A stretch of DNA of 64,000 nt from Saccharothrix australiensis (GTDB lineage: Bacteria; Actinomycetota; Actinomycetes; Mycobacteriales; Pseudonocardiaceae), in contig NZ_RBXO01000001.1 in the NCBI RefSeq assembly GCF_003634935.1, positions 6,969,501-7,033,500 on the forward strand, in the 5' to 3' direction. Shown in pieces: positions 1,685-53,074 of the stretch (position 1 is the first letter of the stretch; every line of letters begins with the position of its first letter). The position numbers and the translations under genes were made by a program. The notes under the pieces were generated by a model. That model worked only from the letters and a program-made list of their open reading frames with translations, was not told the origin of the DNA and did not search any database.

Positions 1685-2234
1685 GACAGACCCAGGCCCA
1701 CCGCACCGCGCCGCGCAGACTTCTGGTCTCGTGTTCTCCCCGTATGGCCTGCCCGCAGGGCAACCACAGTCGGTCAGGGGGCGCAAGCACGCTTCACCGC
1801 TTGCGCCCCCTGACCGACTGTGGTGGTCTTTGACAGGCCATGCGGGGAGAACACGACGCCCTTGGCTTTTGTTTTTCCTCCCCGGAGGTCTGCCCAGCGG
1901 CGAGCGCCTTCTTTTTCTTTCGGCTGAGATCAGCACGGAAGTTCATCGGTTTTAGCGGGTCAAAGCCTAAAGAAGGGCGCTCGCCGCTGGGCAGGCCACC
2001 AAGGATGAGGGCAAAGCTTCTTCGAAGCTTTGCAAGCTTTTCAAGCTTCTTCGAAGCTTGAAAAGCTTTGGCTGCGTGTCATCCCCGTACGACCTGTCAA
2101 AGACCACCACGCTCGTCAGAGGGGCGCAAGCGGTGAAGCGTGCTTGCGCCCCTCTGACGAGCGTGGTTGCCCTGCGGGCAGGCCGTACGGGGATGACACG
2201 CAGCCCGCCCGAAGTGTGCCCTTGCGGGCGGGCT
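1685..2234. repeat. Modular palindromic element, copy A
   Basis: Non-coding, about 550 bases, filling the gap between DUF3817 and the ABC permease. It has three nested inverted repeats: hairpin H1 (1729-1856, 128 nt), a core repeat with 18-nt arms (1890-1907 and 1977-1994), and hairpin H2 (2071-2204, 134 nt). H1 and H2 have the same plan (outer stem, asymmetric internal loop with CCTGCCCGCAGG, 25-bp inner stem, 10-nt loop) but lie in opposite directions. Between core and H2 is a run of six AAGCTT palindromes (2013-2069). A nearly identical inverted copy lies at 19339-19886: H2 is identical over 134 nt and H1 differs at one base. Open frames inside it are by-products of the repeat. Confidence 0.9.
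2202..2234. terminator. GC-rich hairpin at the outer edge of repeat copy A
   Basis: A perfect 10-bp stem (AGCCCGCCCG / CGGGCGGGCT) with a 13-nt loop, just downstream of the ABC permease stop codon. It can serve as the terminator of the minus-strand ABC exporter operon. A comparable hairpin borders copy B. Confidence 0.6.
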
Positions 2235-2245
2235 GGTGGCGTTGG

Positions 2246-3289
2246 TCAGTCTTCCCAGCGGAAGACCTTTGCCGCGATGAAGCCCACCACGAGGGTGAAG
2301 CCGATCAGCACGGCCGACGGCAGCAGCAGCGCTTCCACGCCCTTGCCCCGCACGAGGACGTCGAGCATTCCGTCGTTCATGTGGCGGAGCGGGAAGATGT
2401 TCGACACCGCCTGGAGCCAGCCCGGCGCGTTCTGCACCGGGAAGAACGTCCCCGACAGGAACGCCATCGGCAGGATGACGATGTTCGCCGCGCCGCTCGC
2501 GGCTTCCTCGGTCTTGCAGAACGCACCGACGAGCATCCCGATGGCGAAGAACGCCGTGGTGCCGAGCACGAGCAGCGGCAGCGCCAGCCACCACTGGCCG
2601 GTCAGCTTCAGCCCGAACGGCGGCGTCAGGGCCACCGCCACGAAGACCACGCCCTGGGCGACCGCCGTGCCGATGCTGACCAGCACGCGCGAGCTGAGGA
2701 CCGTCGTCGGGCCGACGGGCGCCAAGCGGATACGGCGCAGCACCTGCTTCTTCCGCCACGCCACGAGGGTGATGGACGCGCCGAAGACACCGGAGATCGA
2801 CACCGCCCACGACAGGATGCCGGGTGTCAGGTACTGGATGGGCTTGAGCGACGAGTCCTCGACGGGCCTGGCGTCGAGCGTGAACGTCGGCCGCGTGCCG
2901 GTCGCCGCCAGGTTGGCCTGGTCGACCACGCCGGAGACGATCCCGACCACGGTCTGGGCCTGAACCTGGTCACTGGCCGCGAAGGTCAGCTCGACGTCGT
3001 CGCCGGTCACCGCCAGGAGCGCGGGCAGGTCGCCGTCGTGGACCTTCCGCCGCGCCGCGTCGGCGCTGTCGTGCCGCTCCAGCTCCAGCGCGCCGGTCCT
3101 CTCCAGCGCCGCGATCACGGGACCGTCGCCGACGACGGCGATCCTGGTCCGGTCGCCGCCGCCCTCCCGGAACAGCAGGCCGAACACGACCAGGAACATC
3201 AGCGGGAACAGGAAGACGAAGAACAGCGTCGTCCGGTCCCGCAGGAAGCCCTTCACCATCGCGGTGGACAGGCTCTTGAACGCGGTCAC
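2246..3289 (-). CDS. ABC-2 type transporter permease (drug-exporter type)
   Basis: A 347-residue membrane protein. A first transmembrane helix (TTLFFVFLFPLMFLVVFGLLF, about residues 20-40) is followed by a ~150-residue extracytoplasmic domain and then five hydrophobic helices in the C-terminal half, the usual ABC-2 membrane layout. It pairs with the ATPase encoded upstream: the GTG start overlaps the ATPase stop as GTGA, so the two are probably translationally coupled. A much longer in-frame reading upstream would overlap the whole ATPase gene and was rejected. Export of a lipid, drug or natural product is likely for this class; the substrate is unknown. Confidence 0.88.
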   Translation of the reverse strand: MTAFKSLSTAMVKGFLRDRTTLFFVFLFPLMFLVVFGLLFREGGGDRTRIAVVGDGPVIAALERTGALELERHDSADAARRKVHDGDLPALLAVTGDDVELTFAASDQVQAQTVVGIVSGVVDQANLAATGTRPTFTLDARPVEDSSLKPIQYLTPGILSWAVSISGVFGASITLVAWRKKQVLRRIRLAPVGPTTVLSSRVLVSIGTAVAQGVVFVAVALTPPFGLKLTGQWWLALPLLVLGTTAFFAIGMLVGAFCKTEEAASGAANIVILPMAFLSGTFFPVQNAPGWLQAVSNIFPLRHMNDGMLDVLVRGKGVEALLLPSAVLIGFTLVVGFIAAKVFRWED

Positions 3290-4200
3290 GCGCGGTACTC
3301 CCGTCCGGTCAGGCTGAGGAACACGTCCTCCAACGTGGCCGTGCGCACCTGGAGACCGTCGAGCGTCCCGCGCTCGGCGAGCGCGGACAGCACGGGCGCG
3401 GGTTTGCGGGTCGAGATGGTCAGCGAGACCTCGTCCTCCTGGGCCTGCTCGACGCCGGCGATCGCCTTCGCCTCCGCCAGCGGCAGGCTGCCCTTCTGGA
3501 GCACGACGTGGGTCGGCGCGTCGAGGCCGCGCACGAGGGTGGCGGGCGCGTCGAGCGCCAGGACCCGGCCCCGGTCCATGATCGCCACGCGGTCGCACAG
3601 GATCTCGGCCTCGTCGAGGTAGTGCGTCGTGTAGACGATGGTCTTGCCGCGCGCCTGGATCGCCCGCAGCACGTCCCACAGGTTGCGCCTGGCCTGCGGG
3701 TCCAGGGCCGCGGTCGGCTCGTCCAGGAAGACGACGTCCGGGTCGTGGACCAGGGCGCAGGCGATGGACAGGCGTTGCCGCTGGCCGCCGGAGAGCTTGT
3801 TCTCCTGCACGTCGGCCTTGTCGGTCAGCCCCACCAGTTCCAGCATCTCGTCGGCCTTCGCGGCGGTGACGCCGTACAGCGAGCCGAACGTCTGCAACTG
3901 CTCCCGAGCGGTGAGCTTCTCGAAGAAGCTGGACGCCTGGAGCTGCACGCCGATCCTGGGCAGCAGGTCCGCGTTGCGCGGCCACGGGTCCAGGCCGAGC
4001 AGCGTCACCGCGCCCGAGTCCGCCTTGCGCAGGCCCTCGACGATCTCCAGGGTGGTGGTCTTGCCCGCCCCGTTCGGCCCGAGGATGCCGAAGAACTCCC
4101 CCTCGGCGACGGTGAACGAGACACCGTCCACCGCCTTCAAGTCACCGTAGTGCTTGCGGATGTCCGCGACCACGACGGCTGGTATGCGCGCCCCTGTCAT
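3286..4200 (-). CDS. ABC transporter ATP-binding protein (DrrA/CcmA-like)
   Basis: A 304-residue nucleotide-binding subunit. Walker A is GPNGAGKTTT (about residue 43), the signature motif is LSGGQRQRLSIA, Walker B is PDVVFLDEPTAALD, and the switch histidine lies in TTHYLDEAE. The long C-terminal tail after the ATPase core is typical of exporter ATPases of the DrrA group. The ATG at 4200 was chosen because the family N-terminus (VVADIRKHYGDLKAVDGVSF) follows shortly after; the frame continues upstream without a better start. It forms an operon with the permease (4-base overlap). Self-resistance or efflux is a reasonable guess, not a demonstrated role. Confidence 0.92.
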   Translation of the reverse strand: MTGARIPAVVVADIRKHYGDLKAVDGVSFTVAEGEFFGILGPNGAGKTTTLEIVEGLRKADSGAVTLLGLDPWPRNADLLPRIGVQLQASSFFEKLTAREQLQTFGSLYGVTAAKADEMLELVGLTDKADVQENKLSGGQRQRLSIACALVHDPDVVFLDEPTAALDPQARRNLWDVLRAIQARGKTIVYTTHYLDEAEILCDRVAIMDRGRVLALDAPATLVRGLDAPTHVVLQKGSLPLAEAKAIAGVEQAQEDEVSLTISTRKPAPVLSALAERGTLDGLQVRTATLEDVFLSLTGREYRA

Positions 4201-19338: not shown

Positions 19339-19376
19339 CACGCAGCCCGCCGGGCACACCCCTGGCGGGCTGCGTG
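19339..19376. terminator. Perfect 13-bp hairpin after the S33 peptidase gene
   Basis: Arms CACGCAGCCCGCC and GGCGGGCTGCGTG with a 12-nt loop, five bases after the peptidase stop codon. It resembles the hairpin bordering copy A and merges with the outer arm of H2 of copy B. There is no U-tract, as is usual in high-GC actinobacteria. Confidence 0.65.
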
Positions 19377-19886
19377 TCATCCCCGTACGGCCTGCCCGCA
19401 GGGCAACCACGCTCGTCAGAGGGGCGCAAGCACGCTTCACCGCTTGCGCCCCTCTGACGAGCGTGGTGGTCTTTGACAGGTCGTACGGGGATGACACGCA
19501 GCCACAAAGCTTTCAAGCGAAGCTTGAAAGCTTTGCCCCCATCCTTGGTGGCCTGCCCAGCGGCGAGCGCCCTTCTTTAAGCTTTGACCCGCTAAAACCG
19601 ATGAGCTTCCGTGCTGATCTCAGCCGAAAGAAAAAGAAGCGCTCGCCGCTGGGCAGACCTCCGGGGAGGAAAAGCTTTAAAGGCGTCGTGTTCTCCCCGC
19701 ATGGCATGTCAAAGACCACCACAGTCGGTCAGGGGGCGCAAGCGGTGAAGCGTGCTTGCGCCCCCTGACCGACTGTGGTTGCCCTGCGGGCAGGCCATAC
19801 GGGGAGAACACGAGACCAGAAGTCTGTGCTGCGCGGTGCTGTGTGCCCGGATCTGTGCTGCGCGGTGCGGTGGGCCTGGGTCTGTG
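19339..19886. repeat. Modular palindromic element, copy B (inverted relative to copy A)
   Basis: Reverse-complement partner of the 1685-2234 element. From left to right it holds H2 (19369-19502), an AAGCTT-containing palindrome (19504-19535), the core arms (19553-19570 and 19639-19656) and H1 (19686-19813). H2 is identical to copy A over 134 nt. The parts that differ are the AAGCTT modules and a tandem duplication of about 35-40 bases beyond H1. It fills the convergent gap between the S33 peptidase and devR-like genes; no gene is supported inside it. Confidence 0.9.
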
Positions 19887-52986: not shown

Positions 52987-52995
52987 CCCCCGGCG

Positions 52996-53015
52996 GCCTG
53001 CCCAGCGGCGAGCGC
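52996..53015. repeat. Solitary arm of the modular palindromic element
   Basis: GCCTGCCCAGCGGCGAGCGC matches one arm of the core inverted repeat of copies A and B (for example 1890-1907). The opposite arm and hairpins H1/H2 are absent; a short TTCAA/TTGAA palindrome follows. It appears to be a remnant or a minimal form of the element, again in a convergent gap. Confidence 0.65.
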
Positions 53016-53074
53016 CGCTCTTCAAAGCCCTTGAAGCCCTTCCACCACTACCCCGCAACCAGCACAAGCGGGGG

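Follow-up and report, generated by a model that had tools for sequence, protein, structure and literature searches.

The two inverted, nearly identical elements of about 540 bp in this part of the Saccharothrix australiensis chromosome (64 kb in all, here called the window) belong to a repeat family whose unit folds into a four-way junction and mostly adjoins the 3′ ends of genes. The explanation that we prefer, and that we believe and doubt in about equal measure, is that the family is an old, interspersed and REPIN-like one of the Pseudonocardiaceae, mobile in origin and now kept at gene ends for a putative function there. On this explanation, the family would have arisen as a REPIN-like non-autonomous mobile element, whose folded single strand was recognised by an enzyme that may now be absent or unrecognised in this genome; the units would be kept alike by gene conversion from copy to copy, which may itself be that copying process; and the folded transcript would be tolerated at gene ends and probably useful there, in ending transcription and giving structure to the RNA ends of converging genes.

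Two units, tail to tail

Copy A occupies window positions 1685-2234 and copy B 19339-19886, inverted relative to each other and about 90% identical overall. The initial annotation had described both as sharing two long repeats, H1 and H2, and a core, and its coordinates and lengths were reproduced: H1 is 128 nt long with one substitution between the copies, and H2 is 134 nt long with none. Only the figure of 18 nt for the core arms needs amending, since it holds for copy B (19553-19570 with 19639-19656) but not for copy A, where the arms are 19 nt long (1890-1908 with 1976-1994). H2 follows the H1 blueprint in the opposite orientation, so that in each 540-bp copy an F unit and a T unit meet tail to tail. 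The basic unit, of about 230 nt, runs from a leader through a hairpin of about 130 nt and a spacer to a half-core that ends in a T-run. In copy A the F unit is read on the plus strand, with its leader (GCGCAGACTTCTGGTCT-like in the own genome; left edge approximate) at 1712-1729, H1 (outer arm TTCTCCCCGTATGGCCTG) at 1730-1857 and the half-core (TCCTCCCCGGAGGTCTGCCCAGCGGCGAGCGCC) with T-run at 1876-1919. The T unit, on the minus strand, has its half-core at 1976-2012, pairing with that of the F unit through the 19-nt arms, then AAGCTT hairpins in the spacer, whose loops read GAA on the unit strand (2013-2069), H2 (outer arm TCATCCCCGTACGGCCTG) at 2070-2203 and a leader (GGGCACACTTCGGGCGGG; outer edge approximate) at 2204-2222. 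Copy B opens with the T unit on the plus strand: leader (GCACACCCC..., outer edge approximate) at 19354-19369, an H2 identical to that of copy A at 19370-19503, a single spacer hairpin with a GAA loop at 19506-19536, and the half-core (CATCCTTGGTGGCCTGCCCAGCGGCGAGCGCCC) with a T-rich tail at 19537-19580. Its F unit follows on the minus strand, with the half-core at 19638-19673, H1 at 19685-19812 and the leader (GCACAGACTTCTGGTCT; outer edge approximate) at 19813-19830. By eye, the differences between A and B fall mostly in the AAGCTT-rich spacer hairpins and the outer leader. The AAGCTT palindromes had been called exchangeable modules; they are spacer hairpins that do vary between copies, but the term is descriptive only.

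H1 and H2 are inverted repeats, as first described, but they fold as four-way junctions and not as simple stems, with an outer stem of at least 20 pairs, a 5′ mini-hairpin, an inner arm and a 3′ mini-hairpin. The inner arm, of about 26 pairs, has a conserved base (ACC) and a conserved tip and is otherwise variable. The 5′ mini-loop reads C(GNA)G in 164 of the 189 forward segments among those listed; such mini-loops are especially stable in DNA, which would favour single-stranded DNA as the working strand. Downstream of the hairpin, some units carry AAGCTT hairpins in the spacer, followed by the half-core (GG-CTGCC...GGCGAG) and the T-run. A half-core lies near a hairpin in 176 of 179 occurrences, a count biased by the fact that nearly all the sequence was chosen for holding a hairpin, and by eye its start is similar to the outer 5′ arm of the hairpin it accompanies, frequently in type as well (TCTCC for F, TCATCC for T). 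An isolated half-core (CCTGCCCAGCGGCGAGCGCC) was also seen at window positions 52995-53020, after a short perfect hairpin (GGTCCGCGCC/GGCGCGGACC) and without the large hairpin.

The palindromic structure of A and B is far beyond chance: against dinucleotide shuffles, the 550-nt stretch folded as RNA gave z = -25.5, and window positions 1728-1860 folded as DNA gave z = -15.3. A catalogued RNA family, one of the outcomes that the initial annotation had considered, was dropped as an identity for the element, with no match at the gathering score in an Rfam 15 search of the window.

The limits of the unit are best seen in S. obliqua, where the leader is of the CACACC type and all 22 units are solo. 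Unit ends were set by a regular expression on the half-core end, which 111 of 180 units passed, all species taken together. In 19 S. obliqua units conservation drops upstream of CACACC (columns 0.63-0.79) and no more than about 5 nt past the T-run. By eye, the column profile of these 19 units shows nothing conserved upstream of CACACC that could be a promoter, and the idea that the unit has a promoter of its own was dropped. Nor was a target-site duplication found at them: at most 3 of the 19 share 4 nt and 1 of the 19 shares 6 nt, and a duplication erased with age is possible. A small stem and CTTTT are closely spaced in the S. obliqua units (by eye), a spacing that is not kept in the units of G150, a genome of the same family.

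Probable selection on one strand

That H1 and H2 share one blueprint filled with different, still pairing letters had been noted at the outset, with the suggestion that structure is kept and not sequence. Both points are borne out by the comparison of units and by aligning 46 units, a diverse selection from 181 distinct ones at the common inner-arm length (2 of 48 picks were left out). Standard pairs fill 98.3% of the cells and two-sided changes occur at 33 of the 52 base pairs; the structure was drawn from the same sequences, which favours the first figure but hardly the second. The proposed covariation test gave a score of 0.498, against 0.146 for shuffled alignments and 0.067-0.107 for slid structures. 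Even the 5′ mini-hairpin is compensatory in itself (CCC/GGG, CGC/GCG, GGC/GCC). Pairing is perfect over 24 pairs in 57 of the 107 distinct inner arms of the common length, and one inner-arm position is G-G in 42 of 104. Judged by these changes, the four-way-junction fold is kept by compensatory change.

The wobble pairs say more about which molecule is selected. In 148 intact units, defined by at most three A·C or other mismatches, the unit strand carries 202 G·T cells and 6 A·C cells. Reduced to distinct events of species, position and letters, which are not fully independent, the counts are 42 against 6 (binomial p 1e-7), and with decayed copies included and labels uncorrected they are 31 against 12 and 39 against 11. 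Since a duplex or a templated-repair origin predicts equal numbers of G·T and A·C, this asymmetry points to a single strand of fixed polarity. One strand, be it RNA or single-stranded DNA, thus seems to be selected, and not a duplex cruciform. The size of the wobble bias weighs for RNA, which we would rate slightly above single-stranded DNA as the working strand, and the large structured RNA proposed initially is at least compatible with the asymmetry.

The same counts bear on the notion that pairing is under no selection at all and that the arms are complementary through templated (quasi-palindrome) repair during replication. Inner-arm blocks do differ on both sides at once between copies of the same genome (by eye), as such repair would have it. 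However, templated repair should also have erased the mini-hairpins and the asymmetric junction, yet both persist, and it gives no reason for an excess of G·T over A·C on one strand; we find it scarcely credible.

Placement relative to genes

Genes were called with a simple custom gene caller and an overlap threshold of more than 60 bases, and none of the 194 units with a called gene on each side overlapped one. In the own genome, at least one gene 3′ end adjoins 38 of 40 places. The 108 solo units lie between convergent genes in 50 cases, tandem genes in 51 and divergent genes in 7, against a background of 48, 146 and 128 for unit-free intergenic gaps of at least 100 bp. Between tandem genes, 26 solo units are sense and 25 antisense. 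There is, then, a strong bias to gene 3′ ends without a strand preference, and the missing preference weighs against a plain sense-strand terminator. The genes flanking the five places looked at were ordinary, varied and chromosomal. Where units are neighbours in the sampled loci, all 33 pairs are tail to tail (28 F/T, 3 T/other, 2 F/F).

The family within the genome

A covariance model of the hairpin (R1), of the kind that the initial annotation had proposed, was run on the 7.86-Mb own genome, with 150 of 8943 candidates scored. It found 59 strong hairpin units at 38 places, as 21 pairs and 17 singles; weaker short R1 matches are not counted here, and part of the singles may be pairs with one member decayed. 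All 21 pairs share the +/- geometry. A DNA search of the same genome gave 114 matching rows; 20 are near full length, including A and B, and some 20 places hold partial copies. Short R1 matches of 49-61 nt were seen at place L057 (about position 3019, minus strand) and at C1 6036063, 789256, 7228590, 1672612 and 7768766; that of L057 has its outer stem intact and its inner arm gone, as if the palindrome had been deleted.

Strong units occur from 0.1 to 7.7 Mb along the main contig. The longest unit-free stretch measures 2.39 Mb (C1 2702701-5090816; p ~1e-4 for random placement), and a short remnant lies inside it at C1 2738259. A void of this kind, together with the nested inverted repeats, is what might be expected of a duplex DNA cruciform serving chromosome organisation, as a site for gyrase or a nucleoid protein. 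We hold this to be very unlikely, given that a cruciform predicts G·T and A·C in equal number where 42 and 6 were counted, that by eye the S. algeriensis matches listed show no comparable void, and that three genomes of the genus have no R1 match and others have few. A signal tied to chromosome position was rejected on the missing counterpart among the listed S. algeriensis matches, and the chromosome-organisation role suggested at first has found little support.

Relatives, shared sites and concerted evolution

The initial annotation had asked after further copies, and they occur in the own genome, the genus, the family and the order. At the DNA level 10 of the 25 genomes of the genus match (E <=1e-5), and with R1 22 of 25 do (E <=0.01; 144 candidates scored per genome), with 0 to 144 rows per genome, both strands counted; the three without an R1 match include G007 and G008, and some others have few. 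With stricter filters and the own genus included in both counts, R1 matches 47 of 249 genomes of the family (E <=0.001) and 10 of 298 of the order (E <=1e-6); R1 E-values are rough. Because R1 is permissive, hairpins were read individually by eye (21 + 26, some of them from the own genus), and the same blueprint is recognisable in most of them, though less clear in a few (L299, L300). A pattern match in Cellulomonas (L172) was set aside as chance, no such hairpin being visible by eye. Carriers among the pattern-scan matches listed are S. algeriensis, S. tamanrassetensis, S. obliqua, a Saccharothrix MAG and Actinosynnema sp. ALI-1.44. In one fragmented assembly, G187, four units lie within 450 bases of contig starts (C45, C69, C93 and C379; L283, L282, L284 and L286), which suggests repeats breaking assemblies.

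Within a sample of relatives' units, a unit stands at the corresponding place in one relative or more for 13 of the 40 places of the own genome (L001, L003, L004, L005, L008, L011, L013, L015, L038, L039, L053, L055 and L057; in L038 and L057 the nearest alignment on one flank is about 2 kb off). Weaker or one-flank matches, such as L019, L041-L043 and L051, are uncounted. This supports the view that some unit sites were inherited from shared ancestry across species. The same-site comparison leaves out L017/L138 (one flank), L039/L153 (units lying some 4 kb from the right flank that aligns) and the plus-strand unit of L001/L170 (a different place). In 20 same-site, same-strand comparisons the unit type agrees 16 times; at site B, S. 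tamanrassetensis has the F and T types exchanged. Units are 0.63-0.83 identical to their same-site counterparts and 0.92-1.00 to the best paralog in the own genome (n = 20), so that the best paralog is closer in all 20. By the median paralog, a fairer measure, paralogs are closer in 17 of the 20, with one tie (L055) and two cases in which they are farther (L008, L039). On these identities, the units evolve in concert within their own genome. The near-identity of A and B had been taken to imply recent spread or gene conversion; since paralogs are closer than same-site units, concerted evolution by gene conversion would fit better than recent insertion at both sites, and spread alone fits less well.

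Sites A and B were compared between species as empty and occupied sites, as had been proposed, but no clean empty site emerged, the intergenic letters being too divergent. At site B, S. algeriensis and S. obliqua lack the element and have, by eye, a plain hairpin in its place between these converging genes, in keeping with a role in termination. At site A, S. tamanrassetensis has a core-like remnant (by eye). By eye, ten element-less species carry at the same gene end an unrelated nested inverted array, GTGAGTCCTACGTTCAGAAC-like with species-variable letters (genomes G004, G005, G009, G013, G014, G015, G016, G017, G019 and G022; loci L088, L089, L091, L095, L096, L098, L099 and L101-L103); it looks as if lineages use different families at this site. 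A different kind of event was met at L164 of S. algeriensis, where 2552-3726 is an insertion sequence of the IS630 type, with HTH_33 and DDE_3 frames and ends CTGATCTTCAATTG...; it lies in the TA of the CCCGTATGG outer hairpin arm, and a TA duplication can be read. The same IS630-type end and frames lie beside the hairpin at L150, L159 and L206, and L165 of S. tamanrassetensis has a similar broken arm.

Candidate partner genes

The non-autonomous mobile element first proposed is a plausible origin; against it stand the missing target duplications at the 19 S. obliqua units and the own genome, which gave no match for a Y1 transposase, a reverse transcriptase or DUF222. The Y1 transposase (PF01797) occurs in 5 of the 25 genomes of the genus and is absent from 9 of the 10 element-rich ones (G000, G001, G002, G006, G010, G012, G018, G021 and G023), with one in G011, and on this distribution mobilisation of the RAYT/IS200 type was rejected. 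Reverse transcriptase (PF00078) is present in 10 of 25, including G002, G011, G012, G018, G021 and G023; its absence from G000, G001, G006 and G010 led us to reject this route as well.

One alternative, on the doubtful side, is that the units are an active or recently active single-stranded DNA mobile element, whose enzyme would recognise the folded strand in the manner of TnpA-REP/IS200-type or integron enzymes, with placement at gene ends reflecting tolerance. Besides the strand-specific wobbles, it would account for the C(GNA)G mini-loops in most units, the sharp conservation edges at CACACC and the T-run in the 19 S. obliqua units, the spread of 0 to 144 rows per genome within one genus and the lack of a sense-strand preference. 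It sits poorly with nine element-rich genomes without PF01797, with no target duplication in S. obliqua, and with a third of the own places being common to the sampled relatives.

DUF222-HNH genes present a more tangled case. DUF222 occurs in 8 of the 25 genomes of the genus, with 9 matches each in G007 and G008, and gave no match in any of the 10 element-rich genomes (G000, G001, G002, G006, G010, G011, G012, G018, G021 and G023). Of 30 Saccharothrix DUF222 loci retrieved, 27 were scanned and none carries a unit, and DUF222-HNH was therefore rejected as a present partner in Saccharothrix. In G150, flanking units were found at all five DUF222 loci scanned (the best 5 of 21), at three of them on both sides and with outward polarity. 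One of these genomic settings, L276, has perfect 323-nt inverted repeats around a 410-aa DUF222+HNH gene, and 13 G150 outer ends stop alike at ...GCGGCGAGCGA..TCTTT. Over seven genomes, units were found at 6 of 30 DUF222 loci scanned: the five of G150, one of five in G087, and none of 20 in the other five genomes. Beyond this sample, a unit of G181 (L274) adjoins a DUF222 gene; that 5.4-Mb genome has 54 DUF222 matches, far above the other genomes searched.

On another reading, the units could mark the ends of a mobile element of the DUF222-HNH (REP13E12) type, and the pairs and singles of Saccharothrix would be orphaned ends left by extinct elements. The bracketed genes, the perfect repeats of L276 and the uniform outer ends speak for this, as does the G181 neighbour, with the reservation that DUF222 genes are so numerous there. 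We nevertheless judge it unlikely: DUF222 is missing from the 10 element-rich genomes and present in G007 and G008, which have no R1 match; units are absent from the 27 Saccharothrix loci and nearly so from those of the other genomes scanned; and the tail-to-tail Saccharothrix pairs are the reverse of the G150 bracket. A broader proposal, unlikely as well, is that the family represents a mobile element of a new class: a folded four-way-junction strand of fixed polarity (RNA or single-stranded DNA) would be both the recognised end and the copying unit, copying would rewrite existing sites and so produce family-wide concerted change of the arms, and the DUF222-HNH nuclease would have been the original partner.

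The preferred explanation, an old REPIN-like family now kept at gene ends, also has points against it. They are the 26/25 strand split, the T-run spacing in G150, the imperfect arms, the two contrary same-site comparisons of 20 and the one tie, the fact that no movement, target duplication or clean empty site was seen, and the absence of the most obvious mobilising genes from this genome.

Significance and comparison with known systems

Nature has recorded selection on a single-stranded fold with unusual clarity in these units, in 107 distinct inner arms of one length class in the sampled loci, of one polarity and mostly from one genus. They open three questions to test: by what means the dispersed non-coding repeats of a bacterial genome stay alike, whether transcription between converging genes is ended by repeats of this sort, and whether structured ends are a substrate of DUF222-HNH (REP13E12) proteins. 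A literature search, with most subscription journals outside its reach, found no description of a cloverleaf element of this kind; PMC3469384 makes no mention of repeats, palindromes, hairpins, terminators or non-coding elements, and PMC4210621 mentions repeats in passing only.

Among known systems, REPs and REPINs (BIMEs) come closest, as extragenic palindromic repeats in many copies, in inverted pairs and as singles. The combination of inverted pairs and diverged singles resembles the REPINs described in an excerpt of PMC3116915, and the strand-specific, single-stranded recognition of REPs by RAYT proteins, as given in an excerpt of PMC3733652, parallels the wobble asymmetry of the units. 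Inverted pairs prevail as in REPINs in the own genome (21 of 38 places, all +/-), but not in S. obliqua with its solo units. A REP, by the definition in the same excerpt (PMC3733652), is a palindrome of 20-40 nt with a GTAG or CGTC tag, whereas the present unit is about 230 nt long with a four-way junction, the hairpin alone taking about 130 nt. Moreover, 9 of 10 element-rich genomes have no Y1 transposase, and the inner arms change while their pairing is kept.

MITEs, too, are short, non-coding and dispersed, with inverted parts. The units differ from them in lacking a detectable target duplication (19 S. obliqua units), in their tail-to-tail polarity, in the frequency of singles, and in that no partner transposase was identified. 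No autonomous element sharing their ends was seen in Saccharothrix; in G150 the units bracket DUF222-HNH genes. Integron attC sites are folded single-strand sites at gene 3′ ends, in which structure and not sequence is kept. The units share the kept fold and the 3′-end position; unlike attC sites, they have strongly conserved outer stem letters, and the flanking genes looked at were ordinary chromosomal ones. Streptomyces telomeres, according to an excerpt of PMC4513846, consist of palindromes set close together, whose GCA loops are closed by G:A pairing, and the units resemble them in packed palindromes with such loops but are dispersed inside the chromosome and not placed at its ends. With the REP13E12/DUF222-HNH repeats, the G150 units share the bracketing of multi-copy DUF222-HNH genes, a likeness that is not matched in the 10 element-rich Saccharothrix genomes without a DUF222 match. 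Finally, bidirectional intrinsic terminators are, like the units, GC-rich hairpins with T-runs between converging genes; the units depart from them in showing no sense preference between tandem genes, in their much greater size and complexity and in the conserved letters of junction and loops.
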